From contig NC_019701.1 of assembly GCF_000317065.1 (NCBI RefSeq), positions 1,364,001 to 1,428,000 of the forward strand: 64,000 nucleotides of DNA, written 5' to 3'. A model generated the notes under the pieces. The model searched no databases. It was given only the letters and a program-made list of their open reading frames with translations, and was not told where the DNA came from. Position 1 is the first letter of the stretch; each line of letters starts with the position of its first letter. Source of the DNA: Pseudanabaena sp. PCC 7367 (GTDB taxonomy: Bacteria > Cyanobacteriota > Cyanobacteriia > Pseudanabaenales > Pseudanabaenaceae). The position numbers and the translations under genes are program-made. This document shows positions 2,670-42,503 of the stretch, one piece after another.

Positions 2670-3938
2670 ATGGCTTTAGTGCCCCACTCTGGTTACCACT
2701 GGCATGGTGGTAGCGATCGTTTTTTTGAGGGTTGGTATTTTCGGGTGACGCTGCCCCAGGCCAGGCAGTCGTTTGTATTTATGTATGCGATCGATGATCC
2801 CCAGGGACATACCCCCTATAGTGGTGGATCGGCGCAGGTTTTGGGAATAGATGAGCAATTAATCTGGCGCACGCTGCCTAATACGGGGGATTTCCGGGCT
2901 GATTATGATGCTTGCTGGTTAGAGCATTGGGGCGCAGGCGATCAGGGCTATCGGGTTAGCGATCGCCACAACCAGGGCATGCTCAAAGACCCAGCCACAG
3001 GCAAGTTTTGCACCTGGGACTATGAAATTACCACGATTAGCACTTGGGGCAGTTTTACTAATTTAACTAATTCGACCAATGGGGTTGCCAAATCGGGGCG
3101 ATCGTCAGAGCCAGAAGCGCCGATCGATCCAGGCATTTCTAGCAACTTAGCTAATTCACCCAGACACAATCAGCAAAATAGACAAATTAACGAGCCACGA
3201 TCGAGATTAAATACTGAGCCGCTTGATCGCAACGCTAAAATTTATCGCCAGGGACAAGCAACCCCTCGTCAAACCAAAACATCCCAAAAGCCCAAAGAAA
3301 AACCCAGAGCAGTGATGGGAATCTTGTCCTATTTGAGCGTATTTGAACCGGGCTGGCAAATTTTGCAATCCCATGCGATCGCCTCTGGCCAGATCAACTG
3401 GTGCGGTGATGTTTATAAGTTTACCAATGCTCCAGCCTATAGCGAAAAGAACTGGGGGCGCACGTTTCCGGATAAATGGTTTTGGTTGCAGTGCAATTCC
3501 TTTGCCAGCCATCCCACCCTCAGCATCACGGCCGCTGGCGGGAGGCGTGAATTTGTCGGCCAACCAACTAATGTGGCAATGGTCAGCATTCATTATCAAA
3601 ATCAGTTCTGGGCTTTTCTACCGGAAGATAGCCAGATCTATTGCCAGGTCAAGCCCTGGGGAGAATGGCACATTTATGCCCACAAAAATAAAATCAATGC
3701 CGATCGCTCCTTAACCTGGGTGCAGGTAATTGGTTGGTGCGATCGCCCTGGTAATCAGGTATTGGTGCCCACCGCAACTGGCTTGAAATTGCTCAGCACT
3801 GATACCCTGAATGGACAAATTCAGCTTAATCTCTCCAGCCCTGGCTTGCAACTCAGAGCCAGTGATAATCAAGCCGCACTGGAAATTGGCGGCGATCCCT
3901 GGCCAGAGCCCTGGCAATTTAAATCAGCCCAAATTTAA
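2670..3938 (+). CDS. Tocopherol cyclase
   Basis: Tocopherol cyclase (plant VTE1, Synechocystis Slr1737) closes the chromanol ring of the phytylquinol to give tocopherol, the membrane antioxidant. The family hallmarks are present: PHSGYHWHG at the N-terminus, FFEGWYFRV at residues 18-26, FEPGWQI near 225-231, and NWGRTFPDKWFWLQCN. At 422 residues it is longer than the roughly 360-residue Slr1737. The excess is a polar, low-complexity insertion at about residues 128-213, rich in Asn, Ser, Gln, Arg and Pro, placed where the family normally has a short connector. The earlier enzyme, homogentisate phytyltransferase, is encoded in this window at 62376-63374, not next door as in Synechocystis. Confidence 0.93.
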   Translation: MALVPHSGYHWHGGSDRFFEGWYFRVTLPQARQSFVFMYAIDDPQGHTPYSGGSAQVLGIDEQLIWRTLPNTGDFRADYDACWLEHWGAGDQGYRVSDRHNQGMLKDPATGKFCTWDYEITTISTWGSFTNLTNSTNGVAKSGRSSEPEAPIDPGISSNLANSPRHNQQNRQINEPRSRLNTEPLDRNAKIYRQGQATPRQTKTSQKPKEKPRAVMGILSYLSVFEPGWQILQSHAIASGQINWCGDVYKFTNAPAYSEKNWGRTFPDKWFWLQCNSFASHPTLSITAAGGRREFVGQPTNVAMVSIHYQNQFWAFLPEDSQIYCQVKPWGEWHIYAHKNKINADRSLTWVQVIGWCDRPGNQVLVPTATGLKLLSTDTLNGQIQLNLSSPGLQLRASDNQAALEIGGDPWPEPWQFKSAQI

Positions 3939-4046
3939 CGATCTGGCTAAAATATAAGCGATCGCCTTTGTAAAATTGATCAGCATCGGCCTAGCAAAAC
4001 AAAACATACCAGCATGAGCCGATATCTTTAATCCAAGCCAGAGCGA

Positions 4047-5048
4047 CTAGCGAAACATACTGCTCACCGAGGAATCCTCATGCACCCGCCAGATCGTCTC
4101 ACCGATCAAATTGGCCACCGACAACTGAGTCAGTTGCGGGAAATGGTTATCCTTGGGGACTGGGATTGTATTAGTGACAATGATCTCCTCAAAGCCTGCC
4201 TGAGAAAGCCGTTCGATCGCTGGTGGTGAAAACACCGGATGGATCGCACAAACATATACTTGCTTGGCTCCTTCCTGACGCAGCAATTTGGCTGCCGCCG
4301 TAATGGTTCCAGCAGTATCGATCATGTCGTCCACCAGCACCGCGTTTTTACCTTCCACTTCGCCCACCACATTAAACACTTCAGCCACATTATGAGCCTG
4401 GCGACGCTTATCAATAATGGCGATCGGCGCATCATCCAGCTTTTTCGCAAATGCTCTGGCTCTGGCCACCCCCCCCACATCCGGCGACACCACCACGATG
4501 TCTTCCAGTTGTTTATCTAAAATATAGTTAATCAATACCGGCGAGCCATAGACATGATCGCAGGGGATATCAAAATAGCCCTGGATCTGGGCAGAATGCA
4601 AATCCATTGCAATCACCCGATCGGCTCCCGATTGCACAATCAAATTGGCGACTAGCTTGGCCGTAATCGATTCTCGCCCGGCTGTTTTGCGATCGGCACG
4701 GGCATAGCCATAATAGGGCAACACCGCCGTAATTTGCCGCGCGGATGCTCGACGGCAGGCATCGATCATAATTAACAGTTCGGTCAAATTATCATTGACT
4801 GGTCTACAGGTTGGTTGGAGCAAATAAACATCACAACCTCTGATCGACTCTTGTACCTGGATATAAACCTCACCATCGGCAAAGGTTTTTCTGACCATTG
4901 GGCCCAGTTCAATGCCTAAATAATTTGCCACCTCCTGAGCCAGGGGCAAATTCGCAGATCCAGCAAATAAACGCAGCCGATCTTCGCCACTGGAAGACAA
5001 GCGTGCTAACCTTGAAGCCTCACGGGAAATTTTGGTATGAGTAATCAC
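4047..5048 (-). CDS. prs: Ribose-phosphate pyrophosphokinase (PRPP synthetase)
   Basis: This enzyme makes 5-phosphoribosyl-1-pyrophosphate from ribose 5-phosphate and ATP for purine, pyrimidine, histidine, tryptophan and NAD synthesis. The 333-residue length is normal. Visible motifs are the N-terminal RLRLFAGSANLPLAQEVA, the flexible-loop RADRKTAGRESITAKLVA, the metal site DLHSAQIQGYF and the PRPP-binding loop VLVDDMIDTAGTI near residues 238-250. The start is a GTG at 5046-5048, and no clear ribosome binding site precedes it, so the first 20 residues are less certain. It faces tocopherol cyclase tail to tail across 108 bp. Confidence 0.97.
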   Translation of the reverse strand: MITHTKISREASRLARLSSSGEDRLRLFAGSANLPLAQEVANYLGIELGPMVRKTFADGEVYIQVQESIRGCDVYLLQPTCRPVNDNLTELLIMIDACRRASARQITAVLPYYGYARADRKTAGRESITAKLVANLIVQSGADRVIAMDLHSAQIQGYFDIPCDHVYGSPVLINYILDKQLEDIVVVSPDVGGVARARAFAKKLDDAPIAIIDKRRQAHNVAEVFNVVGEVEGKNAVLVDDMIDTAGTITAAAKLLRQEGAKQVYVCAIHPVFSPPAIERLSQAGFEEIIVTNTIPVPKDNHFPQLTQLSVANLIGETIWRVHEDSSVSSMFR

Positions 5049-5085
5049 AGCTAAAAAAAACCCACTGTTGGCATCGTAGCATTCC

Positions 5086-5115
5086 TTTTGGGGTTCAATG
5101 ATCGAATCCCCAAAA
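5086..5115 (-). terminator. Inverted repeat downstream of ftsZ, possible terminator
   Basis: TTTTGGGG at 5086-5093 pairs with CCCCAAAA at 5108-5115 around a 14-base loop. It lies 128 bp downstream of the ftsZ stop on the minus strand. The A/T arms could serve as the U-tract in either direction. The stem is short and it also sits in the prs leader, so a regulatory hairpin for prs is an alternative. Confidence 0.4.
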
Positions 5116-5243
5116 TGTTAAGGTATCGCCACATGTGAGTAAATCCTCACCAACCCAGTCGATCGAATGTGGGGATGGGCTGTTTGTTCTTACCAGCAAT
5201 CGGATTTTTGATCTGGCTATGTTAACAACTAACAACCAAAGAT

Positions 5244-6530
5244 CTACCTTTTGGGTCGTCTGCGTTGCAAAAAGTCGGGAATGTCCAGACCTGGCTTGCT
5301 GATCCTGGGATCGGCAGCGGTGGGACTAGGCGCAGGGGTATTTGGCACAATCGGCGACTTGACTGGTACTTGCTTTTTGATTTTAGGCGTTGGTGCAACA
5401 TTTGGCTTTTGGGAAAAACCAGTGGCGATCACGGTGATCCGAATTTCGCCTTCCATGCTGTCATCAATCACCGCCCCGAAAATAATATTGGCATTGGGAT
5501 CGACCACCTCATAGATGGTTTCGGCCGCGGCATTTACTTCATGCAAAGTCAGGTCACTACCGCCAGTGATATTGAAGACCACGCCATTGGCACCCTCGAT
5601 CGAAGCCTCCAGCAGTGGCGATGAGATCGCGGTCATGGCAGCTTCACGGGCGCGCGATTTACCGGAACCCGTGCCGATCCCCATCAGGGCTGAACCAGCA
5701 TCGGCCATTACCGCCCGAATATCCGCAAAGTCTACATTCACCAACCCAGGAATAGTAATAATATCAGAGATACCCTGTACGCCCTGGCGCAACACATCAT
5801 CAGCAACCCTAAAGGCCTCTTGGACTGGGGTTTGCTCGGAAATCACTGAAAGTAACTTGTCGTTGGGAATAATAATCAGGGTGTCTACGCGGCTTTGTAG
5901 GGATTCCACCCCGTCTTCCGATTGCTGGGTGCGTCGCCTGCCCTCGAAGGTGAAGGGTCTGGTAACTACGCCGATCGTCAGTGCGCCGGTTTCCTTGGCC
6001 ACTTCAGCAATGATTGGGGCAGCACCAGTACCAGTACCACCACCCATCCCAGCGGTAATAAATACTAAATCAGCCCCTTCGATCGCCGCCGCAATATCAT
6101 CCCGCGACTCTTCGGCAGCTTTTTGGCCGATCGCTGGATTGCCGCCTGCTCCCAGGCCACGAGTTAACTTTTGCCCCAATTGAAACCGTTGTGATGCCGA
6201 GGACTGAATCAAAGCCTGCGCATCAGTGTTGACAGACCAAAACTCAACACCAGATACCTCACTGGCAATCATTCGGTTAACGGCATTGCCACCAGCACCA
6301 CCTACGCCAATGACTTTTATCTTTGCCATACTACCCGGCGTGATTTCATCCAATTTTCCGTCAACTCCTGGTTGCTGTTTATTGCTATGCTTATGATTAA
6401 GGGAATTGCCTAAATTTAGTTCAGCATGGGGTATGTGTTCATAGGCTTCGTTAGCCATTGGGATGCCCGATAGTGCGTTGTCCCCAGAGCTATCGGACTC
6501 TAGCTCTGACCAATTATTCTCAGGTGTCAT
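5244..6530 (-). CDS. ftsZ: Cell division protein FtsZ
   Basis: FtsZ is the tubulin-like GTPase that forms the division ring at midcell. The 428 residues comprise a poorly conserved N-terminal extension of about 67 residues, then the GTPase core from [18 protein letters not shown]. The tubulin signature GGGTGTG is at residues 163-169. The synergy-loop segment [11 protein letters not shown] follows, then a Pro-rich linker and the conserved tail IPDFLQRRR, which binds FtsZ partners. N-terminal extensions are typical of cyanobacterial FtsZ. The gene follows ftsQ on the same strand with a 173-bp gap, the usual cyanobacterial arrangement. Confidence 0.98.
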
Positions 6531-6703
6531 TAAAACTGCAAAGTAGAAGTATAAAACATTGCCAGTTATACAAGATTACATGTTAAATCAAACTCAGTCA
6601 GAATTTTTAGCATGTTATAGGATTTTCGTTGGCTCTAGTTTGACTAGATTTGCCTCAATCACCAATTAAACTGGCTAGATTAATCAGCTACTAAATTGCA
6701 AGT

Positions 6704-7522
6704 CTATAACTCTATTGCCGACAAATCAACTTTAGCCGAGTCTAACATCTCCAGGACTGGGCTATTAGGGTCGCTCAAATCCAGATAGAGAAAGCTTTCG
6801 GGGTCAAGAACGCGATCGAGTTTACGCAATCGATCGAGGGTCTTTAATTGGCGCGCCAACTTATTAGGTTTATAGATACCACAATGCACTGTTCCCAACT
6901 CGGTGATCAAAATCAAGTTAGACTTATCCCGCCAGTCCACCTGAGTGATTTTGACCGGGCTGTTGCTGATGTGGTCATAGGCTTCAGCCCAAACCTCAGC
7001 CACCTGTTGATCAAAGCCCAGAATAGTTAATTGGGGCTGATCGATCGAACTGGGGTAGCTATGCAGGGGCATCCAGGCACCATTTTCATCTAATAAGCCC
7101 TCTTCGTTAAATTGCAGGGCTCTGGCAACTGGTTCCCGCTCTTCCACAATCACGGTTAGCTTAGAAGGAAAAAGAGTACGTTGCACTTCCACACTTTTGA
7201 CCGGAGCAGTCTTTTCCAACTGTTCAGCAATTTCATGGGGCTTGACCCAAAAGATGTGCTGTGGATAACTAACTGGCACCATATCCTGCAAAGTTTCCCG
7301 CGTTAACAGCTTGTTACCTTCAATATCAATTTGACTGGAGTTATCTAGCTTTAGATCGGGCAGGGAAGCCAACCAAACCAAACCAGTAGTGGCACTACTA
7401 ATAAATACAATTTGCCACATATGCTGAAAAAACTTCAATCGCCGTTTCTGCCGAATTTGCTTGCGGCGGGCGACAAAATCGTCTTCAGAATTTGGATATG
7501 GAAGAGAAAGCCACGATCTCAT
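6704..7522 (-). CDS. ftsQ: Cell division protein FtsQ/DivIB
   Basis: FtsQ is a single-pass membrane protein that links early and late divisome components. The protein has a basic N-terminus (RRKQIRQKRRLKFF), one hydrophobic helix at about residues 34-52, and a POTRA-type region starting at IDIEGNKLLTRETL, followed by the family segment VERTLFPSKL-like QRTLFPSKLTVIVEEREPVA. I chose the ATG at 7520-7522 (272 residues); a GTG two codons upstream is equally open. It lies just upstream of ftsZ, which supports the call, because FtsQ sequences diverge strongly. Confidence 0.92.
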   Translation of the reverse strand: MRSWLSLPYPNSEDDFVARRKQIRQKRRLKFFQHMWQIVFISSATTGLVWLASLPDLKLDNSSQIDIEGNKLLTRETLQDMVPVSYPQHIFWVKPHEIAEQLEKTAPVKSVEVQRTLFPSKLTVIVEEREPVARALQFNEEGLLDENGAWMPLHSYPSSIDQPQLTILGFDQQVAEVWAEAYDHISNSPVKITQVDWRDKSNLILITELGTVHCGIYKPNKLARQLKTLDRLRKLDRVLDPESFLYLDLSDPNSPVLEMLDSAKVDLSAIEL

Positions 7523-7977
7523 GGTCACAACACATTATTGGGATGGGATTGGATTTGCGGATGGGATATGCTTAAACCAGAATGCTTAGCCTATATATAT
7601 TGACCGAACAATCATAAATAAAAACAAATAGTTGGCCAATCGGTTAACAGCTACGATCGCTAATCTTGCTTATTTCATGCTTCATAGCCATTGCATTGAT
7701 AAAATGCATCACAATAACTATAAATTTATCAGTCGGCCTACGAAATAAATAGAAAAATAAATAGAATTAGTTGATTTATTCAACATCAAGTCATTAAATC
7801 AAATAGATTCAACCCAATACCGTTCAGGGAACAATATCACGGTCTTTTTATTTACTTAATCTTAAATTCGCCTTAAATAGAGCTAGAACCTTTAAGAGAC
7901 AAAATCGATCGCCTTATCTAAATCGCCCTACTTAATTCGATAGAACCACAAAATGGCAACCAAAGATATGAGGGAAT
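7523..7977. other. Intergenic spacer upstream of ftsQ
   Basis: This AT-rich 455-bp spacer presumably carries the ftsQ-ftsZ promoter on the minus strand. The sequence AAATAAATAG occurs twice, at 7743-7752 and 7755-7764. TTGCATT/AATGCAT arms at about 7692-7709 can form a small hairpin. No gene is seen. Confidence 0.45.
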
Positions 7978-8211
7978 TCAAAGATCAGTAGAGGGGCTGC
8001 TATGGAACTGGCGCTCTAGCATTTCGACGATCTCCTGGCGATCATTAGCCAGATCAACCTGACGAGTAGCAACACCAACCCTTGGCTTAAGCGATCGCTT
8101 CGCAAATGGTGCAGGCATGCGGAACATCTGCAATGCTTTTAAAAATAGCAACATTGCTGCTGCGATTAATAAAACGGAGATAAAAACGTAGGCAACTGCA
8201 GCAATCATCAT
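7978..8211 (-). CDS. Small single-pass membrane protein, unknown
   Basis: The 77-residue product has one N-terminal membrane helix (about residues 3-26, rich in Ala, Leu and Ile) and a polar tail with basic residues (FAKRSLKPRVG) and an acidic helix-like end (QEIVEMLERQF). An AAGG motif lies just upstream of the double ATG at 8206-8211. I do not recognise the family. It precedes the ftsQ-ftsZ pair on the same strand, but a 455-bp gap argues against a shared transcript. It is probably a real gene, because the topology follows the positive-inside rule. Confidence 0.5.
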   Translation of the reverse strand: MMIAAVAYVFISVLLIAAAMLLFLKALQMFRMPAPFAKRSLKPRVGVATRQVDLANDRQEIVEMLERQFHSSPSTDL

Positions 8212-8404
8212 ACTTAACCTTATGTCTAGATGGGATTTAACCTAAGATACAAAATTAGTTTACCCTGGCATACATTCTGGCAATCAAGCCCTAGATGCCT
8301 TCAGACAAATGCTGATAGTGCGATCGAGTTACTACAAAAAGATGCATGTATTTAAGCATATCTAAAACATAATTACCAAATATTTAAGCTATTGAGGCCA
8401 AAAA

Positions 8405-9415
8405 TTGCATAAGAATACCGACACAAGAATCATAAATTCAAATAAATCAATTAAACTAGCGATCGCGGCTGGATGTTTGAGTATTATTTTGGGCATGATT
8501 ACAATTGGCTTGTTTGTGTCCTTAGCTGCTCCGGCAATGGCTGAATGGGCTTACCCTGCTGCGGTAGATATTACTTGGAGCAAAAATGAAAGTCGAGGCG
8601 ATCGTTTAGCATTCTCAGTGCCAAAATTGAATTTGGTGATCGGTGCAAACCCCAAACCAACTCAAGCCGAAGCAACGATCGCCCAACTGCCAGTCTATGA
8701 CCCTGAAGTTGCCAGCCAGATAGAACCAAAGCAGGATTTTTATACTAAACACGCGCTCCATAGCCCAGATGGGATCGGTAAGTTTTACCTTGGTCGGGAG
8801 ATCGCTAAGGTGATGGGACACACTGAAGCGGTTTGGTTAGAGCGCCCCAGTCGGCAGTGGCAGGAAGATCCAGACGCAGTGATCGCCGCATTGCACCTCA
8901 AACCTACTGACGTGGTGGCAGATATTGGCGCGGGGACGGGCTATTTTAGCTTTCGGCTCAGTCAGCAGCTCACTCAGGGCAAGGTGTATGCCGTTGATAT
9001 CCAGCCAGAAATGATCGATATTTTGCGATTTTTGAAAACCGAGAATGCGATCGATAATGTGGAAACGGTGCTGAGCGATCCCCAAGATCCCCATCTTCCC
9101 AGCCAAAGCATCGATCTAGCGTTGATGGTGGATGCCTACCATGAATTTGCCTACCCCCATGAAATGATGCAGGGGATCGTTAAAGCGCTCAAATCAGGCG
9201 GCAGAGTAGTTCTGGTGGAATATCGCCGCGAAAATCCGTTTATTGCGATCAAAACCTTGCATAAAATGACCCAACGTCAAGCCAAGCAAGAAATGGCAGC
9301 GGTCGGCCTCAGTTGGCTAGAAACAGATGAGTCGTTGCCCAGCCAACACATTATGATCTTCCAGAAGCCAATGCAAGAACTGGAACAAGAGACTAGCTCA
9401 ACGGAAGTTAAATAG
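8405..9415 (+). CDS. SAM-dependent methyltransferase with N-terminal export signal
   Basis: The C-terminal half is a class I methyltransferase: motif I DVVADIGAGTGYFSFRL at about residues 166-182, then the acidic end of strand 2 (VYAVDIQPEM) and LVEYRRE. Before it lies the segment FYLGREIAKVMGH, typical of a family found with signal peptides. The N-terminus has a hydrophobic stretch at about 17-44 ending in APAMA, a good signal-peptidase site. The listed start is TTG at 8405; the next in-frame ATG is 30 residues later and would cut the hydrophobic segment. The substrate is unknown. Whether the catalytic domain really leaves the cytoplasm, where SAM is available, is open. Confidence 0.8.
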   Translation: MHKNTDTRIINSNKSIKLAIAAGCLSIILGMITIGLFVSLAAPAMAEWAYPAAVDITWSKNESRGDRLAFSVPKLNLVIGANPKPTQAEATIAQLPVYDPEVASQIEPKQDFYTKHALHSPDGIGKFYLGREIAKVMGHTEAVWLERPSRQWQEDPDAVIAALHLKPTDVVADIGAGTGYFSFRLSQQLTQGKVYAVDIQPEMIDILRFLKTENAIDNVETVLSDPQDPHLPSQSIDLALMVDAYHEFAYPHEMMQGIVKALKSGGRVVLVEYRRENPFIAIKTLHKMTQRQAKQEMAAVGLSWLETDESLPSQHIMIFQKPMQELEQETSSTEVK

Positions 9416-33789: not shown

Positions 33790-35661
33790 TCAAAGAATGC
33801 CAGAGGATTCGTAGAGATAGCGCAGGATCGCCATGATCTTTTCCGCATAGAACGGATCTACTGCCCAACGACCGCTCAATTGACCAACCAATGGCGCAGT
33901 GCCACGGATCACAAATCGAAATCGGCTATCTACCAGTGGTTGAACTAATGGTTCAGTGCTGGCATAGGCCTTGAGATGTTGCACATGGGCCCTGATCCCG
34001 ATCCGGATCGTGGGAAAGCGATCGCCACCATTGCCCAGCTCGATCGCACCCAAACCAGCAAAGTTATTCTGCTGCGGTTCCACATCCCCGCCAAACCGCA
34101 GGAAACCAGTTTCCAGGCACATCTGACAAAAGGCGATGTCGTGATTAATCCCTTCGATCGCTGCTTCTTCGCGGTAGACATTGGGTAAATTCGCAAATTC
34201 CCGCAGGGCAAGATCGTTATTTTGGCGCAGAAAACTAAGTAACTGGGTGGCAGAGGTTAATCCCTGTCCCATAATCCGATCGATTTGTCCCAGCCAGATC
34301 CGGTACGTGGTTTTGACAATTACGGTATTATTTGCACCATCCCAATAGAGCGACAGATTAAAATTACGCAATTCCAGTGCCCGTAAATACTTTTCATGGG
34401 CATAGCTGAGCCGTTGCATATTTTGGATATGCTTAGCAGCGATCCCCAGATAGGCGGCCATATCCTCTGGTACATACACATTGCCATTTACTAAAATGCC
34501 AGGTCTGGGGTAGGGTTTATTATTAATAATAATTTTGAGATATTGATACTTATCAACCAGGCCGCGTGAGTTGGGTTGGGTTGGCTGATTGCGGGGGCGA
34601 TCGCCAAATTCACTTGGCTCACGGGTAATCGAGCTTAATTGCTCAGAGCGATCTAAATCTGCCTGGTTTAGATTTTTAGAATCTGGCTCCGTTTGGTTTG
34701 CCTGATCAGCAGCATTAATATCAGAAATATTAGAAATATCAGAAGTATCAGAGGCATCGATCGCACCCTCTAAGTTCTGTTGTGGGTTTTGTTCTGGCTC
34801 CCTAGACGATCGATCGCTGAGTTGTTTAACCCGCTCTGGCTCAGCCTGGCTAATAATTTCGGGATTAATGGTGGGATTTTCATAGTAGTCGGGGCTGGGC
34901 AAATCTTCGGCCACACTGGGCAAAATCATTTTGCCGCTGATAATCGTGTCCAGGGCATCAGCAATTGCGATCGCAATATTCCGGCGATAGGTTTGCAACA
35001 GCCTTAGATCGGTGGGGTTACTAATAAATCCCAACTCAATGAATAGTGATCTTGGCGCAATATCTCGGCAGAAGGCCAATCGCCCCAAAGCCGTAGCTGA
35101 ATCGGGCTTGATGCCACGGCTAGCTAATTGAGGCACACCAATCAGCAATGACTCCAGCATCAATTCGGCATGTTGCTGGCGCTCTTCGTTAAACGAAATA
35201 TAGTAAACGCGCACCCCCCGCAAACTGGCATTATCATAGGCTCCCATATGAATTTCGATCGCCAGATCTCGATAAGAACCGCGATTGTTGATCCAGCTCA
35301 CGGTTTCTGGCAGGCTGAGCTGGTCATCGGGTAATGCAACCCTGAACCCACGCGATCGCAACTCTTTGGCGATCAAATCCTTGGTTACAATCATTTCTGC
35401 TGCTTCAGTGGTGCCCCCTGCCCTAGCGCCAGGATTACGAAAGCGAGCATCAAAGCCACCATGCCCAGCGGATACAAAAATCTGTCGCCCCGGATGATGG
35501 GCGATCGGCTCGGCGCAATTACTAGTCAGCGAAGCCAATAACAAACCCGCTCCCGTTTGCAGGAGCCGACGGCGCTGAATTCGGTAATTATGACCTGTTG
35601 CTCTTTTGGGCGATCCTTGTGGCGATCGCTTGAATGGATCAGGTCTAGACGATAACCCCAT
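33790..35661 (-). CDS. Amidase_3 / glucosaminidase fusion, peptidoglycan hydrolase
   Basis: The 623-residue protein begins with a Tat-like export region (RRRLLQTGAGLLLA, residues 30-43). An N-acetylmuramoyl-L-alanine amidase domain follows at about 60-230, with zinc-ligand candidates His67 (SAGHGGFD), Glu86 (TTEAAEM) and His138 (IEIHMG) and the catalytic Glu in LFIELGFISNP. Then comes a disordered Asp/Ser/Asn-rich linker at about 265-355, a segment resembling a copper-amine-oxidase-N/SLAP-like fold (VNGNVYVPEDMAAYLGI), and a C-terminal glucosaminidase-like domain (EEAAIEGINHDIAFCQMCLETGFLRFGG). Two different cuts, the peptide stem and the glycan chain, are predicted from one exported chain. 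It lies 21 bp after the next gene upstream, probably in one operon. Confidence 0.87.
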   Translation of the reverse strand: MGLSSRPDPFKRSPQGSPKRATGHNYRIQRRRLLQTGAGLLLASLTSNCAEPIAHHPGRQIFVSAGHGGFDARFRNPGARAGGTTEAAEMIVTKDLIAKELRSRGFRVALPDDQLSLPETVSWINNRGSYRDLAIEIHMGAYDNASLRGVRVYYISFNEERQQHAELMLESLLIGVPQLASRGIKPDSATALGRLAFCRDIAPRSLFIELGFISNPTDLRLLQTYRRNIAIAIADALDTIISGKMILPSVAEDLPSPDYYENPTINPEIISQAEPERVKQLSDRSSREPEQNPQQNLEGAIDASDTSDISNISDINAADQANQTEPDSKNLNQADLDRSEQLSSITREPSEFGDRPRNQPTQPNSRGLVDKYQYLKIIINNKPYPRPGILVNGNVYVPEDMAAYLGIAAKHIQNMQRLSYAHEKYLRALELRNFNLSLYWDGANNTVIVKTTYRIWLGQIDRIMGQGLTSATQLLSFLRQNNDLALREFANLPNVYREEAAIEGINHDIAFCQMCLETGFLRFGGDVEPQQNNFAGLGAIELGNGGDRFPTIRIGIRAHVQHLKAYASTEPLVQPLVDSRFRFVIRGTAPLVGQLSGRWAVDPFYAEKIMAILRYLYESSGIL

Positions 35662-35682
35662 GGATGCTGGTTCTAATCAAAT

Positions 35683-36459
35683 CTACTCAGGTCTGTCAGG
35701 CATGGTCAGTTTTTGTCGGGCCGCCTGCCAGAAAATGCGACTAACTTGGGAATCGGCGGTATTCAGTCGATCGGGATAGTAGTTAGTCACAACTGAACTA
35801 ACCTGGGTAATGAGCCGATCTACTCGCCCTTGATCCTGTAGTTGGCCGATCGCCAGCCAGAATGCCTTGGCCTCTGCCTCACTGCAATGATCGAGCCAAT
35901 CCGTAATTTGATTAATTACCGCTTCCACGCTGGTGGTATAGCTGACATGGCTAATCGGCTGATTTGGTTGCTCGCCCGCAGAAGGAGCGGCGGGATCGCC
36001 CAAATTACGATCACGATTTGAATTAGCAAAAGCTCGATCGCCTAGTGCCAATGACCCTGAATGCGGCGATCGTTTTTTTCGTTCTACCTCAGCCCAATTT
36101 ATTGAATTTGCTGAATTTGCTGGCTGTGAGAGATCTAATGAATCCCCCTGTCTAGAGATTGCATCACTTACCAAATCGACATTCTCTGGTGCCGCAGGAT
36201 TACAATTAGTACAATTAGCAGCCTCAGCCATAGCGATCCGATCGCTAATACTGCTGACTTTGCTAGTGGTGGCGATCGCCTGCCTTGGTTGGATTGCCCG
36301 TGCTTGTTTGGGTTGGATTTGCTTTGCTTGATATTGCAACCGCAGATTATGCCAACTAGCCTGCTCCAACCATTGCGGTTGATCGAGATAGTTAAATAGA
36401 TCAACGGTGGTTTTAGAATTCGGATCGATCGGTGGTGTTGGTTGTTGATCACCTTGCAT
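35683..36459 (-). CDS. Unknown protein upstream of the amidase
   Basis: The first 22 codons of the longest frame start with TTG at 36525. I prefer the ATG at 36457-36459, which has a GGGGGA seven bases upstream and gives 258 residues. The N-terminal 170 residues are polar and low-complexity (Gln, Asn, Ser, Pro). The last 85 residues look folded and helical (VEAVINQITDWLDHCSEAEA, KAFWLAIGQLQDQGRVDRLI, SRIFWQAARQKLTM). There is no signal peptide, membrane helix or known motif. Its tight 21-bp spacing to the peptidoglycan hydrolase gene suggests a linked role; the function is unknown. Confidence 0.65.
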   Translation of the reverse strand: MQGDQQPTPPIDPNSKTTVDLFNYLDQPQWLEQASWHNLRLQYQAKQIQPKQARAIQPRQAIATTSKVSSISDRIAMAEAANCTNCNPAAPENVDLVSDAISRQGDSLDLSQPANSANSINWAEVERKKRSPHSGSLALGDRAFANSNRDRNLGDPAAPSAGEQPNQPISHVSYTTSVEAVINQITDWLDHCSEAEAKAFWLAIGQLQDQGRVDRLITQVSSVVTNYYPDRLNTADSQVSRIFWQAARQKLTMPDRPE

Positions 36460-36619
36460 GGTGTCATCCCCCGCTAATTTTTTTTGCGTTGTTTTGTGCT
36501 CACCACCCTGAATTCCAGGTTTCAAAATATCCAGATTATTTAAATCATCTAGATTCTCTAAATCATTTGACCCAGTCCGAAGGCATAATGCCTGTACTCT
36601 TCTGCCCTTTTACGGCAAG

Positions 36620-36769
36620 TTATTTCAAGCATGGTGGCGCACTGGGAAATGGCAATTTCGGATCACCGCAACTGCGCGGATCGATCGAATAGGCTTGGGT
36701 TGCTCCTATGGGCAGGATCAGCACGGTCAGGATTACGGCAGCGATCGCCAGTAGATTTAAATTTTTCAT
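36620..36769 (-). CDS. 49-residue exported peptide with two cysteines
   Basis: The frame starts MKNLNLLAIAAVILTVLILP and has a textbook Sec signal: a Lys near the start, a hydrophobic core, and ATQA before a predicted cleavage after residue 26. The mature part would be only 23 residues, beginning YSIDP, with Cys34 and Cys47, five prolines and the end PPCLK. A strong Shine-Dalgarno (GAGGAG at 36780-36785 on this strand) lies ten bases upstream of the ATG. No homolog comes to mind. It sits inside a run of five co-directional genes with peptidoglycan hydrolases at both ends. It is short enough to be missed by automatic annotation. Confidence 0.6.
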   Translation of the reverse strand: MKNLNLLAIAAVILTVLILPIGATQAYSIDPRSCGDPKLPFPSAPPCLK

Positions 36770-36836
36770 CGTGTAATTACTCCTCATGTTTAGTTAAGCC
36801 AAATCCAATACCTGCAGGGATCAAATATTCCTGCGC

Positions 36837-37208
36837 TCAAAAAAATTCATCCCAGATCTGCTCCTTACTGATCTTCTTGCCACCACCGCGATTGGGCGAG
36901 AACTGCAACCGGCAGCCAAGGGTTGCAACTGCCTCCAGCAGGCGATTAGTATCGCGGCGAGAGCGACGACGCACCAGAAATTCGGGCAACCGTTGCTGGG
37001 TATATTGGGGATGATATTTAGTTTTAAGGGTTTCGTAGAAGGCATAAAAATCAGCTACTTCTTCATTGCTACAGGTCGCCAAGAACAGCTCAATCTCCCG
37101 CAGTAGGTTATTAGCGCGACTAGGTTTGGCAGCAGACTTGGCTGCATACTTAGATCGCCTTGGCTTAAATTGATGTACATCTAACGGTGGAATCGGCTCT
37201 GCTTTCAT
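36837..37208 (-). CDS. Small basic protein, unknown
   Basis: The 123-residue protein has a Lys/Arg/Pro/Ala-rich N-terminus (about residues 1-32), then a helical region (NNLLREIELFLATCSNEEVADFYAFYETLKTKY) and a basic patch LPEFLVRRRSRRDTNRLLEAVATLGC, with the end ISKEQIWDEFF. No signal peptide or membrane segment is seen. The VRRRSRR patch could bind nucleic acid or acidic lipid; that is speculation. It lies 67 bp from the exported peptide and 63 bp from the M23 gene, all on the minus strand, so it probably belongs to the same transcription unit. Confidence 0.65.
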   Translation of the reverse strand: MKAEPIPPLDVHQFKPRRSKYAAKSAAKPSRANNLLREIELFLATCSNEEVADFYAFYETLKTKYHPQYTQQRLPEFLVRRRSRRDTNRLLEAVATLGCRLQFSPNRGGGKKISKEQIWDEFF

Positions 37209-37271
37209 GTTCTCTTCCCCTGGCAGCTAGATCTTTGGGCGCGATCGCCTTGCTTCTAATTACTTGTCCCC

Positions 37272-38495
37272 TTAGCTTGGCCGAATCACTTTGGGGCTGT
37301 AGCCGGAATGGGTACTAAGCAATTCGGATTCAACCAGACCCACCCCAGCAGCAGGTAAGCCACCACTAACTTGCGTGTTTAGGTGGGGAGCGATCGCCTC
37401 ATTGATGGTGTTCGCGGTATTAACAACCTGGGGCGAAAGATTTACGGCATTAAGCGCCAGGTAAAGCTCCTCCCTGGTCATTGGCGGTAGATAGTCAACG
37501 GGATTAGCGCTGTGTTTGCCATCGGGCAAAATTTCAAAATGCAAGTGGGACTCAAGACTTTTGCCCGTGCTACCAGTGAGGGCGATCGGTTGGCCTGCTT
37601 CTACCTGTTCGCCTTGGCGTACCAGCAATTTATGGTTATGGCCATAAAGGGTTTTGCTGCGATCGCGGTGTTCAATCACCAGCAAGTTGCCATAGCCAGA
37701 ATTATTCCAACCAGCAAAAATCACATTGCCCGCCGCCGCCGCACCGATCGGCGTTTGTGGGGGGGCAGCAATATCAATGCCGCGATGAAACTGCCAATCC
37801 TTAAAAATCGGATGAATCCGCCAACCATAGCTAACCCGAATTTCACCCACCAGCGGCGCAACATATTTAAGTCGGGGCGGATGCCGACTGGAATATTGCC
37901 GATCGCACATCGATCGCCAATTTGCTAATTGCACCAACCAGTAGTTAGGAGCCTGGGGCACTAATTCAATTAAATGGGGCTTCAGGGCGGTGGTCGTAGC
38001 CATCTCTAGCCAGATCCTGGTGCTGGATTGATCGATCGGGCTGACTTGAATAAACTTGATCGTTGGCCCCGTTTGCGTTTGCACTGCAGTGCGATCGACT
38101 GCCACATTAACCAAATCCAGCCAGAGCTGATGGGATTGTTCAGATAGATAGAGCTGCGGCAACAGAGCTTGGGCAGCCAGGATTTCGAGGCGATTGCGGC
38201 GCTGATCAAACTGAACCGTGAGCAGGCGATTGACGGGACGGGGTGAAATATTTTGCGGCAGTTCAACATGCGGTAGTTCAACATACTGATGCGATCCAGG
38301 GATTGCTGAGCTGCGATCGTTTATTTGGGCTAAAGACTGGGCTTGGTAACTATCAACTTGGGGCGATGTTGATGCCAGCTCCATAGGCTCAGCAGACTCA
38401 ATCTCAGTTTCCGCGATCGTTAGGGCGGGAACGGTGAAAGCTTGGCGATCGGGATGATTTAAACCTTGGTGATGGTGGTTAATTAATTGGTTCAT
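37272..38495 (-). CDS. M23-family metalloendopeptidase
   Basis: The C-terminal third is an M23 (LytM/NlpD-like) domain that cuts peptide cross-links in peptidoglycan. It shows VSYGWRIHPIFKDWQFHRGIDIAAP with the HxxxD ligands, IAAAAAG-like GAAAAGNVIFAGWNNSGYGN, VIEHRDRSKTLYGHN and SHLHFEILPDG with HxH. All metal ligands appear intact, so it is probably an active enzyme, not a degenerate NlpD type. The N-terminal 230 residues have no recognised domain. Surprisingly, no signal peptide or membrane helix is visible at the N-terminus, and the frame upstream is closed by a stop. It is first of five co-directional genes. Confidence 0.88.
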   Translation of the reverse strand: MNQLINHHHQGLNHPDRQAFTVPALTIAETEIESAEPMELASTSPQVDSYQAQSLAQINDRSSAIPGSHQYVELPHVELPQNISPRPVNRLLTVQFDQRRNRLEILAAQALLPQLYLSEQSHQLWLDLVNVAVDRTAVQTQTGPTIKFIQVSPIDQSSTRIWLEMATTTALKPHLIELVPQAPNYWLVQLANWRSMCDRQYSSRHPPRLKYVAPLVGEIRVSYGWRIHPIFKDWQFHRGIDIAAPPQTPIGAAAAGNVIFAGWNNSGYGNLLVIEHRDRSKTLYGHNHKLLVRQGEQVEAGQPIALTGSTGKSLESHLHFEILPDGKHSANPVDYLPPMTREELYLALNAVNLSPQVVNTANTINEAIAPHLNTQVSGGLPAAGVGLVESELLSTHSGYSPKVIRPS

Positions 38496-39734
38496 TAATC
38501 TCTGTTCCCGAAGTTATAAATCATGGGCGGAGTTAGGCTTCAGATGAGCTGCTAAACAATCGATCGACCAAAGTGGTTCAAAGTGAGCTTATGTGAGGAC
38601 GACCATATCCTTGAGCAGGGGCTTACTACCTTTTCTATGCAATTACCACAATACTTGCGTAAAGGAGGCTAGCCAGATTGCACCTAGACCACCCAATCAT
38701 CGATCCAGGCAGGCTTCAGCAGATCTTCGCCCCCAATAAGAGTCCCTCTGCTGAGGCACTTTGATCAGCGATCGCCACAGGTACAATCAGCAACTTAGGC
38801 AAACTCAAAGAATTTTAATCAATTAAGTGAGGCTAAGTGAGGATAATCGTGTATCCTATAGCGAAATGGCTTAGTCAAAATCGCTGATTGATTAATCCAG
38901 AGCTTCAAATCTGTTTAGGCTCATGGTTGCTTGAGTAACTAAATCAGGCTAGTAAGCAATTTCTGAATAATATTCATCCTGCGGTGTTTATTCCTTGAAC
39001 CATAAGCAAAAGTAGCCAAATATCAATTACTCCTATTCAAGGGTAAAATTCCTGCCTTAGTTTGTAGACCATAAAAAGCCAGCGATTTTGTCCTAAAAAA
39101 CATGAAAGCTATTTATTCCTGCCTTTGATCCAAATCACCAACTTATCAATCCATACATTTAATAATCATAATTAAGGCTTTAGATTGTTTTAAAAAGCTA
39201 GATTTTTAAGCTAGTAATCCAAATAAAAATGTTAAGCGATCGCAAATTTTTAACTTGCGATAGTTTTTGCTGATTAATGACAAATAAGAGAGTTCTTAAT
39301 AGCTAACCTGAGTAATTGCCGATCGCAAAATGTCGGTTTAAATACGATCGCAACCTAACAAATAAATCTGACTTTAAATGATTAATCCTTTAAATGACTT
39401 ATTCAACAAGGCTTATGTACTAATAAAGTCAGTAACCAGATCAATAAGAAACGGCAAAAAAGTACAAATGGGTATTGCAAATAATAAAAAGTATGCTATT
39501 TATCTTACAAGATTTATGAATTCATAAAACCTATAATGAATTAGCAATAATTTGCCTGATTATGACCCTACTTAAAAATAGTTGACTCCAGATTTTTAAT
39601 ATATCTAGAAAACAAATTAAATTTCTAATCACAGTTGCTTAAAACTGTTTATTTAGTCTTACTGAATACCAAAGGCTATTTACTTGAAGACAGATAAAGA
39701 CTGGTTTTGGTATTAGTTGAGGAAAGAGAAAACA
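38496..39734. other. Longest gene-free stretch in the window
   Basis: This 1.24-kb AT-rich region separates the divergent M23 and STAND genes. The 10-bp unit TAAGTGAGG(C/A) is duplicated at 38824-38843. I found no tRNA, no known small-RNA signature and no frame with a ribosome binding site. An uncharacterised small RNA or a long 5' leader for the STAND gene would fit, but nothing in the sequence proves it. Confidence 0.5.
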
Positions 39735-42503
39735 ATGAACATTGAAGACGCACTATTAATTGTCGATCGAGCATTGCCACACAAAGGGCTTAGTAATGTC
39801 CAGGAGCTACTATTTCGCCAGGCTTGGGAGGGGAAAACCTATCCAGAGATCGCAGAAAATTCTGGCTATGATTCTTCTTACATCAGGGATGTCGGCTATA
39901 AACTATGGCAATCGCTTTCAAGATCCCTGGGCGAAAAGGTGACTAAGAATAATTTACAGGTGGTGTTACGGCGTTATGGGCTGAAGCTGGCCAAACACGA
40001 TCGCCAAGCTCATCAAGCTCATCAAGCTCATCAAGCTCATCAAATCATATCCCTACCCCAGGGCTCTGGCTCGGTGGTGATGCCTTTCCCAGTGGCGGGG
40101 ATGAATAATGGCGCGATCGGAATATCTGGAATATCTACCCATCCGGCGAGTAATGGTAGGTACCCTTCTAATTCCATCAATCCTGGTGGTTCAGGTGATC
40201 AGGGCGATCGCCATGCTCAAGCCAGCTATAGCAATAACCTGCATTACCTCTCGACCAATAATCGCCCAGGCCAAGCTCTGCCAGAGGCACCGAATAATCC
40301 GGCTCCCCACCACCCAAGTGACTTAAATCTGGTAGACAATAGCTCAAGGGAAATACCTAGAGCAAATGGTGTTGCCAACAGAAGTAGCGATCGGCTCCAC
40401 AATGCTAATGTTGTTGATTTTAAGCGCACCAATTCCCCAGCTATTATTCGCAATCCTGGTTCTACACAATTTAACAATATTGCCAATCTGAATGGCTCCA
40501 GGTTAGCTACAACTGAATCAACCGCCAAGCCAGCGAAGCGATGTGATTGGGGTAGTGCGATCGATGCATCGGTCTTCTATGGCCGTAACTCTGAGTTGGC
40601 TACTGTACAAAGCTGGATTTTGGCGCAGGAATGTCGGTTGGTGGGAGTTCTGGGTATTGGTGGCGTGGGCAAGACCACCTTTGCGGTTAAGCTGGCGGAG
40701 CAAATTCAAACTGAGTTTGATCTAGTGATCTGGCGATCGCTACGGCATACACCCAGTCTCGATTATTTATTGATTGACTTGCTTCAGTTTTTACAAGGAC
40801 GTGATGTGATTGCCCTGGCCACCACCGAGCAGTTAATCGCCCAATTAATTAACTTGCTGCGATCGCATCGCTGCCTGATTGTGCTGGATCATGTTGAAGC
40901 CTTAATGCTGGGGGGGGCTACCACTGGCACTTATCAGCCTGAATATGCTGACTATGGTGAGCTATTCCGCCAACTTGGTGAGATGCGCCATCGCAGTTGT
41001 GCGATCGTGGTCAGCCGCGAGAAACCCCTGGAGCTCAATTCGCCCGACCTGGATCTGCCCAAGAGTAAATCCATTCAACTGGGTGGGCTGGCCGCTGCGG
41101 CAACAAAAATTCTAACTCAGCCATCATCGCCAATTAATCCGCAATGGATTGAAAATAATCCAAGTAGTCAGGACGATCGTGATCAAAGTGAGCTAAATAA
41201 TCACAATCAGGCAAAACAAAAACTAATTGACTATTACAGCGGCAATCCCCTGGCCCTGAGGGTGGTATCAAGATCGATCCAGGATTTGTTTGATGGCAAT
41301 ATTAATGAGTTTTGGCAGCAAGGCCCAGTGGTCTTCGGTCAAATTCGGCATTTATTACTGCAACAATGCGATCGCCTCAGCGATTTAGAAATGCGGATCA
41401 TGTATTGGCTGGCGATCCTGCAATTACCTGCCCCAGTCACAACCTTGCAAGAATGCCTGGTGCCGCTCGTGGCTAAGGCGGAATTACTAGAGGCGCTATC
41501 TTCGCTGCGGTGGCGATCGCTGATCGAAAGAGCTAACAATGGTTTTAGCCAGCAACCACTGGTGGGCACATATATGATTGAGCAACTATTGGAAAATGCG
41601 GTTGAGGCAATTATTTCTGGCGATCTGACTTTTTTATGCCAATATCGATTGCATTCTAGCGAACAAATGGGCAAGCTGAGCGGCGATCGTAATATTGCAA
41701 CGCCCCTACTCACCAAGCTGCTAGATCACTATGGCAATGGGCAAAATTTGAGCGATCGATTATGCCAATTGCTCCAATCATTTCAACCACCAGGGCAATT
41801 AACAGGGCAATTAACAGGGCAATTAACAGGGCAATTAACAGGGCAACTGGGGCAACTACCTGCAACCGCTCAACCAGGATATTACGCCCCCGCCAACCTC
41901 AAATATTTACTGCAATTAACCGGGCAGTCTTCTAATCCGCAGAATAGAATAAATTCTAATCTCCATGACGTGAATAAAGACATAAATGCGGCCGGATTCC
42001 CACAGCAAGTGAATGAATCCAGCGATCTGCAACTATTACAGCGATTGATCACCAGCGATCGGCCAGGGGGGATCGCCACCTGGGATCATCGCATTCCCTG
42101 GGTGAATAATCCGCTTACCCAACAGACAGCGGAAACTAAAACTCAAATTCGCCAGAAAGACCTTTATTATCAATGGCCCGCCAATGAGCTAGCAGCTTTG
42201 CAGCAGGAATTACGCCAGCAAACCAAATTGCGTAAACGTTATTGCGCCTGGCTGAATGATCATGAATTTGCGGAAATTGATGCTGATTTTGAGGCGGTGC
42301 AAATTACCGATGCCCTCAATTGTCTGGTTGATGCCCGCTTGGTGTTCATGAATGAGGTAAAAATTATTACCCCACCACCAGGAATGCTGCGACCTTCTCA
42401 ACGCATGGCGCTAGAGCAAATGCACCAGCTAAATCAAATAGACCAGAGCGATCGCCGATCGGCTCAGTTACTAAACACCGAGGTTGGCTCCCATGCTTCT
42501 TAG
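39735..42503 (+). CDS. STAND NTPase (NB-ARC) with N-terminal vMAP-like helical domain
   Basis: The 922-residue protein starts with the about 85-residue HTH-like domain common at the N-terminus of cyanobacterial NB-ARC proteins (MNIEDALLIVDRAL, LSNVQELLFRQAWEGKTYPEIAENSGYDSSYIRD). A 200-residue low-complexity linker with a QAH repeat follows. The NB-ARC domain holds GIGGVGKT at about residues 307-314, a Walker B-like CLIVLDHVEAL and GNPLALRVV. A winged-helix region follows (LSDLEMRIMYWLAILQLP). The C-terminal part carries a GQLT repeat, and I see no WD40 or TPR sensor there. I chose the ATG at 39735 over a TTG six codons upstream. Such proteins are signal-transduction or defence ATPases; the specific role is unknown. 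Confidence 0.82.
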   Translation: MNIEDALLIVDRALPHKGLSNVQELLFRQAWEGKTYPEIAENSGYDSSYIRDVGYKLWQSLSRSLGEKVTKNNLQVVLRRYGLKLAKHDRQAHQAHQAHQAHQIISLPQGSGSVVMPFPVAGMNNGAIGISGISTHPASNGRYPSNSINPGGSGDQGDRHAQASYSNNLHYLSTNNRPGQALPEAPNNPAPHHPSDLNLVDNSSREIPRANGVANRSSDRLHNANVVDFKRTNSPAIIRNPGSTQFNNIANLNGSRLATTESTAKPAKRCDWGSAIDASVFYGRNSELATVQSWILAQECRLVGVLGIGGVGKTTFAVKLAEQIQTEFDLVIWRSLRHTPSLDYLLIDLLQFLQGRDVIALATTEQLIAQLINLLRSHRCLIVLDHVEALMLGGATTGTYQPEYADYGELFRQLGEMRHRSCAIVVSREKPLELNSPDLDLPKSKSIQLGGLAAAATKILTQPSSPINPQWIENNPSSQDDRDQSELNNHNQAKQKLIDYYSGNPLALRVVSRSIQDLFDGNINEFWQQGPVVFGQIRHLLLQQCDRLSDLEMRIMYWLAILQLPAPVTTLQECLVPLVAKAELLEALSSLRWRSLIERANNGFSQQPLVGTYMIEQLLENAVEAIISGDLTFLCQYRLHSSEQMGKLSGDRNIATPLLTKLLDHYGNGQNLSDRLCQLLQSFQPPGQLTGQLTGQLTGQLTGQLGQLPATAQPGYYAPANLKYLLQLTGQSSNPQNRINSNLHDVNKDINAAGFPQQVNESSDLQLLQRLITSDRPGGIATWDHRIPWVNNPLTQQTAETKTQIRQKDLYYQWPANELAALQQELRQQTKLRKRYCAWLNDHEFAEIDADFEAVQITDALNCLVDARLVFMNEVKIITPPPGMLRPSQRMALEQMHQLNQIDQSDRRSAQLLNTEVGSHAS
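40005..40045 (+). repeat. In-frame 9-bp repeat in the STAND gene
   Basis: CAAGCTCAT is repeated four times from 40005 to 40040, then decays to CAAATCAT. It encodes QAH units in the linker between the helical domain and NB-ARC. Confidence 0.85.
41793..41840 (+). repeat. In-frame 12-bp repeat in the STAND gene
   Basis: GGGCAATTAACA occurs four times in perfect tandem, followed by two degenerate 9-bp pieces GGGCAACT(G/A). Each unit encodes GQLT, giving a flexible segment in the C-terminal half. Perfect identity suggests recent slippage. Confidence 0.88.

Follow-up and report, generated by a model that had tools for sequence, protein, structure and literature searches.

A putatively exported 49-residue peptide is present or lost together with a TftA-family wall hydrolase in Pseudanabaenaceae and recurs on mobile elements

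Introduction

Can a cyanobacterial wall hydrolase have a small exported partner of its own? The question is raised by a locus of Pseudanabaena sp. PCC 7367 (source genome of 4.89 Mb, two contigs), which lies in a stretch of 64,000 nucleotides (contig NC_019701.1, positions 1,364,001 to 1,428,000; hereafter the window, to which positions refer unless stated otherwise). Between positions 33790 and 38495 the window carries five genes, all on the minus strand, encoding in order an M23 peptidase, a small protein A, a 49-residue peptide, a protein B and a TftA-family hydrolase, separated by 63, 67, 160 and 21 bases. An earlier note, made from the letters alone, had read them as a cell-wall cutting cluster with its own exported regulator or partner; the five open reading frames are where it placed them, and its M23 and amidase/glucosaminidase calls are borne out by Pfam Peptidase_M23, Amidase_3 and Glucosaminidase.

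In Nostoc punctiforme, TftA (hormogonium tapered terminus morphoprotein) is required for the tapered ends of filaments: deletion of tftA abolishes tapering and a complemented strain shows lysed cells (PMC10710843). The same account states that a zymogram did not settle the hydrolytic activity of TftA, that tftA is monocistronic, that Lys and Gln (Q152) occupy two positions of the amidase domain, and that it is unclear to its authors how TftA is spatially limited (PMC10710843).

Results

The peptide gene (36620-36769) and the hydrolase gene (33790-35661) were followed through 26 genomes of a neighbouring genus (g6), which we take to be Pseudanabaena. The gene order there is A-B-peptide-glucosaminidase, with a divergent NB-ARC ATPase gene adjoining A. 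Peptide and hydrolase are both found in 20 of these genomes, neither is intact in five (G009, G013, G014, G021 and G025) and no genome has only one of them; the remaining genome, G032, was unreadable and left uncounted, its contig ending about 170 bases after the peptide gene. One of the 20 (G029) has a hydrolase cut at 201 residues. In the five loss genomes the hydrolase is absent genome-wide, and three of them (G009, G013 and G014) contain remnants of the peptide gene. They fall in four places in a tree of the A and B proteins, a locus tree with several weak nodes. The chance of obtaining 20 and five genomes without a mixed case is 1 in 53,130 by a simple count that ignores kinship.

Because A and B are kept in all 26 genomes, the joint loss is specific to the peptide and the hydrolase. 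Genes beyond the locus vary between genomes, any one flanking family being found at 7 loci at most. Among 80 TftA-family loci from named genomes, A, B and the peptide occur in only two, both Pseudanabaena loci of this type, and the window holds the same set together: A, the peptide, B, a putatively exported TftA relative and the divergent ATPase. The linkage of peptide and hydrolase is well supported, and the proposal of a wall-cutting cluster with its own exported peptide holds to this extent: in 25 of 25 readable Pseudanabaena-like genomes the two are jointly present or jointly gone. A search for relatives of the peptide and for a conserved neighbourhood found both, leaving that proposal unrefuted.

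Judged from its relatives and codon pattern, the 49-residue frame is a genuine gene and not a chance open reading frame. It has AGGAG ten bases 5' of its ATG and, on reading the sequence, a plausible signal followed by a 23-residue mature part (YSIDPRSCGDPKLPFPSAPPCLK) with two cysteines, all as first described. Relatives in the Pseudanabaena-like operons match at E values from 8e-10 to 2e-7 and align with it to give a mature sequence of Y[ST]QDPRSCxDPRTQ[YF]PSxPPC. In pairwise comparison of 12 copies, the mature part shows 407 synonymous against 103 non-synonymous codon differences, while the signal part shows 545 against 450; the existence of relatives and this synonymous excess in the mature part are what argue for a real gene. 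The window peptide differs more than the mobile and host copies of g6 do (YSIDPRSCGDPKLPFPSAPPC). Over 388 cyanobacterial genomes the peptide profile matched 27, of which 24 belong to g6, one is the window genome and two, G034 and G080, are weak; the G080 match overlaps a gene of chemotaxis type and was discarded as chance.

The peptide showed no similarity to any family model tried in Pfam, NCBIfam and PHROGs or in a profile search of the PDB, where the only matches were short PsbX chains aligned to the hydrophobic part. A and B likewise had no match in Pfam or NCBIfam, and none of the three proteins was matched in PADLOC. With a mature part that is hydrophilic and proline-rich, and with replication genes as its phage neighbours, the peptide resembles neither a phage lysis peptide nor a holin or other pore former.

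A separate pattern was seen at the nucleotide level. Mature codons 14-20 (CAATATCCGTCAAATCCCCCTTG) are almost fixed synonymously in the operon copies L138-L157 and other g6 operon copies, the first half of the mature part varying freely; this stretch is not fixed in the window or in mobile copies. It occurs nowhere else in 9 genomes scanned, and no consistent pairing partner was found for it elsewhere in the operon.

Additional copies of the peptide gene lie away from the operon in 7 of the 26 g6 genomes. Among the genes and elements around them are D5-type primases with DUF3854 (L158 and L165, of a family common to L160), a VapE-type protein (L163) and, for L162/L273, a prophage that has genes for portal and tape-measure proteins. 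When viral contigs were scanned, five (L203 to L207) proved to encode the peptide. Three of these, L203, L205 and L207, are of one temperate type, with L205 not independent of the prophage in G026, having the same peptide and neighbours; L204 is AT-rich, and the nearest records to the polymerase of L206 are podoviruses of filamentous cyanobacteria. At least five unrelated mobile backbones carry the peptide. In the tailed types its gene lies among replication genes, after a DnaD-like loader in L203 and beside Cas4-type exonuclease and clamp-loader-like genes in L206. A viral scan by DNA pattern returned 12 stretches, of which three were the peptide in contigs already found and nine were chance by their reading frames; collections of phage and plasmid records gave no peptide match. 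In the stretches read, neither the hydrolase nor A nor B was found with the mobile copies.

The element at L160/L270 (G019:C1 about 239500-251500) carries a helix-turn-helix repressor, a member of the D5-type primase family, an HNH nuclease and the peptide. No structural genes were seen among the few of its proteins scanned, save one odd partial match to a portal profile, and from its content it looks like a phage satellite.

Codon usage was compared between 8 mobile and 21 operon copies, not including L162, L166, L205, L206 and L207, which differ in length or motif. Mobile and operon copies have on average 14 to 20 of the 21 mature residues in common, and 53 to 65% of these are specified by different codons. 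Several mobile copies are identical to operon copies at 19-21 of the 21 residues, and L203 agrees with its best host copy at all 21, yet differs at 9 of 63 bases. Near identity in amino acids together with diverged codons indicates that mobile and host copies parted long ago and have been held by selection, rather than exchanged recently.

The hydrolase of the window has 623 residues and matches Amidase_3 (6.9e-22) and Glucosaminidase (5.7e-12). It scores 580 bits to the NCBIfam model TftA NF050040, above the curated cut-off of 500, whereas the g6 hydrolase scores 259 bits and falls below it. Both domains are present in one protein in the window but not in the g6 relative scanned; the g6 enzyme is a glucosaminidase only, of about 215 residues, with the signal MRRKQ[FL]LQ in the copies inspected. 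The N-terminus of the window protein contains QRRRLLQTGAG, so that, read by eye, both types begin with twin-arginine signals resembling those of the twin-arginine translocation (Tat) pathway. In alignment with the window hydrolase, canonical TftA starts directly with the amidase domain and has no export signal. The order of amidase, linker and glucosaminidase is that of TftA, the linker in the window protein being long, of low complexity and rich in Ser, Asn and Asp. The four standard amidase residues, H, E, H and E, are all retained in this alignment. AlphaFold run without an alignment gave a mean predicted local distance difference test score (pLDDT) of only 31.1.

A second, canonical TftA is encoded in the same genome at C2:1746836-1748260 and scores 696 bits. 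The window hydrolase is a paralogue and not an ortholog of canonical TftA, the canonical copy of its own genome scoring higher; in a domain tree it stands, with weak support, apart from the canonical TftA of its relatives. This tree did not bear out a closest relationship of the window glucosaminidase domain to that of the Pseudanabaena-like enzyme. A contig labelled as a Bacteroidales assembly (L117) encodes a glucosaminidase 54% identical to residues 463-619 of the window protein, and is probably misbinned cyanobacterial DNA or the product of a transfer.

Of the three proteins that the earlier note had called unrecognised, none has a match in Pfam, but two of them, A and B, form one family, which it missed. 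From profile matches they are diverged members of a small Pseudanabaenaceae family. Protein A (36837-37208, minus strand; 123 residues, basic) is A-like in its core and C-terminus and B-like at its N-terminus, matching the A profile at E 6.5e-13 and the B profile at E 4.6e-9, and AlphaFold models it as all helical at low confidence (mean pLDDT 56.6). Protein B (35683-36459, minus strand; 258 residues) has a B-like N-terminus and core, its B-profile match (E 4.1e-5) having a probability of only 70; the A/B profile matches it at E 4.6e-6, with residues about 177-223 as the common core. Its start at 36459 is backed by its first residues, MQGDQQPTPPI against MQSDAFPTPPI in the B family. A profile search found the A/B family in 32 of 388 cyanobacterial genomes, 31 in the family of the window organism and one marginal: all 26 of g6, both of g7, both of g8 and the window genome. 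Relatives of A are found in 30 of 38 genomes of the order, mostly as tandem pairs. A PDB sequence search with the A/B profile gave chance-level matches only (best E 0.075). A role for A and B as chaperones in Tat export was set aside, since both persist without the hydrolase.

Two further loci contain members of this family. In L169 (G037, genus g8; 3837-6755) an A/B pair lies divergent beside a relA/spoT-type gene. In L170 (G034, genus g7; 4756-8793) one strand carries dnaA, an A-like gene with two core repeats, a gene for an NMT1-like transporter-like protein with a Tat signal, and a diverged TftA-like gene.

The divergent gene beside the cluster, at 39717-42503 on the plus strand (start at 39717 or 39735), encodes an NB-ARC (STAND) ATPase (PF00931, 1.8e-11) with a helix-turn-helix-like N-terminal region and forms a conserved flank of the A/B locus. 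The protein is 46% identical to its g6 counterpart over most of its length, and the gene adjoins A in 24 of the 26 g6 genomes. An apparent loss in G013 and G014 was rejected, as the gene lies elsewhere in both, and the G025 protein lacks its C-terminal part. The C-terminal domain was seen, almost always in single copy, in 30 of 388 cyanobacterial genomes, 28 in the family of the window organism and two, weak, outside it. None of eight proteins of the locus and its relatives matched known or candidate defence proteins in PADLOC at E 0.01. The locus first described is real, but the description left out this conserved ATPase, which lies beyond 38495, as well as the TftA paralogy and the copies on phages and other mobile elements.

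The M23 gene (37272-38495, minus strand; 407 residues, PF01551 1.7e-31 and a weak AMIN-like part) had been included in the proposed system, but its place there is not supported. It stands between the ATPase gene and A only in the window and is missing from the conserved locus in 26 of 26 relatives; it is a lineage-specific local neighbour. Its protein has HxxxD and HLH, the active-site motifs of M23 enzymes, instead of the degenerate site of LytM activators of the EnvC/NlpD type, and scores far below the activator cut-offs. Despite its wall-acting domain, it has no obvious signal peptide. Terminator-like sites were at background level (5 found against 6.9 expected), and no Rfam match was found.

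Discussion

What was observed directly comprises the genes and their conservation, the mobile copies, and the fact that peptide and hydrolase occur and disappear jointly; from these observations we infer a working in which the physical contact, the direction of action, the export routes and the roles of A, B and the ATPase would be as follows. The TftA-type glucosaminidase, in the window still fused to an amidase, would be exported, probably folded and through Tat, and would cut peptidoglycan. The 23-residue peptide, exported through Sec and probably looped by a disulfide, would meet it in the periplasm as a dedicated partner, most likely as a restraint (an immunity factor) and less likely as an activator. 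A and B, as small helical cytosolic proteins, together with the ATPase would form the control side, the ATPase probably setting transcription of the operon. Phages and satellite-like elements would carry the peptide alone in order to check the same hydrolase, or to use that control point, during infection or lysogeny. To such a lineage-specific, exported wall-remodelling module, with the peptide as periplasmic partner, most likely restraint, and imitated by phages, we would give even chances.

A periplasmic partner is the simplest reading because the two genes are present or lost jointly, because both products appear to be exported and because the peptide has a hydrophilic, two-cysteine form. 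A restraint is favoured over an activator because phages place the peptide among early genes and do not carry the enzyme with it, and because it is the peptide, rather than the enzyme, that has left remnants in loss genomes, as would fit an enzyme lost first and a peptide then needless. Both arguments are indirect. Control of the operon by the ATPase is suggested by its divergent position and DNA-binding-like N-terminus; A and B must have a further role, as both stay when peptide and hydrolase go.

Alternatively, the hydrolase could be a second TftA of the ordinary kind, with a role in shaping the ends of filaments or in filament breakage, and the peptide would activate it or target it to terminal or septal wall. 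Its 580 bits to the TftA family and the Nostoc phenotypes, loss of tapering on deletion and lysed cells on complementation (PMC10710843), speak for this, and joint loss is as compatible with an activator as with an inhibitor. Nevertheless, we regard it as unlikely, since a canonical TftA of 696 bits, without a signal, is encoded elsewhere in the same genome, and since an activator carried in the early or replication region of a phage would risk early lysis.

The occurrence on at least five unrelated mobile backbones, in the replication region of tailed phages, could also mean that the peptide is primarily a phage factor, for superinfection exclusion or another accessory function, captured by hosts at a site where the hydrolase merely happens to lie; that about four lineages have lost it jointly with the hydrolase, and that its operon partners are the same in two genera, makes this distinctly improbable. 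Since the exported peptide is short and its mature sequence is fixed across hosts, phages and satellite-like elements, it might be a signal common to host and prophages, like phage communication peptides. Known peptides of that kind, however, differ between phages, no receptor-like gene repeatedly accompanies the mobile copies, and two fixed cysteines and the tie to a wall hydrolase fit periplasmic binding better, so that we think this very improbable. A shared operon with no other functional link between the neighbouring genes is the least probable of all: A and B do persist where peptide and hydrolase are gone, and the M23 gene is plainly no more than a local neighbour, but the gene order is conserved in 20 relatives amid variable flanks and the loss is joint.

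Several points weigh against the module with a periplasmic partner that we prefer. The glucosaminidase domains of the window and g6 enzymes do not clearly group as sisters (support 0.78-0.79), and the window domain is up to 66% identical to that of canonical TftA, so that recruitment of TftA relatives may have happened separately in the two operons. In the window, B lies between the peptide gene and the hydrolase gene; A and B persist in g6 genomes lacking the hydrolase and are not close to TftA in genus g8. Of the genomes with the peptide operon, 7 of 21 also carry mobile copies, against none of five without it, a difference in the expected direction that is not significant. Both export routes were judged by eye and are putative, and the interaction of the peptide with the hydrolase and the activity of the latter are predictions.

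The kind of hydrolase is already known, whereas three things appear to be new: the peptide family, its link with the hydrolase, and its occurrence on unrelated mobile elements. These were found neither in those parts of the open-licence literature that were searched nor in the family libraries. The window hydrolase differs from the Nostoc protein in its own putative export signal, its long low-complexity linker and its operon partners, tftA being monocistronic in Nostoc, and it has an intact amidase Glu where Nostoc TftA has Gln (Q152) (PMC10710843).

The EnvC and NlpD activators and the proteinaceous lysozyme inhibitors are likewise small or dedicated exported partners of wall hydrolases; these are folded proteins of 100 residues or more, whereas the mature peptide has 23 residues and two cysteines. 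NB-ARC/STAND regulators of the MalT/AfsR type share with the window ATPase a DNA-binding-like N-terminus followed by NB-ARC; the window ATPase, which lies divergent beside its presumed target operon, differs in its lineage-specific C-terminal domain, and has no match to defence models. As with phage accessory (moron) genes and satellite cargo, the peptide is a single small gene between replication genes, but it differs from morons in being near identical in amino acids to a gene of a host operon while its codons have diverged.

A bolder version, which we put forward only tentatively, is that the peptide represents a new class of exported cysteine microprotein acting as a portable brake on a wall hydrolase, one that would be used by the host in an ATPase-controlled operon and by at least five unrelated phage or satellite-like backbones to stop or time wall cutting. 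For the question of how filamentous cyanobacteria confine wall cutting to one cell or pole, a peptide whose presence follows that of a TftA-type hydrolase offers a candidate control element of 23 residues, short enough to be synthesised and tested directly. That unrelated phages and satellite-like elements keep the same peptide, its residues fixed while its codons have diverged, points to a host process that matters during infection, and suggests that host and mobile elements may both use it to control wall cutting.

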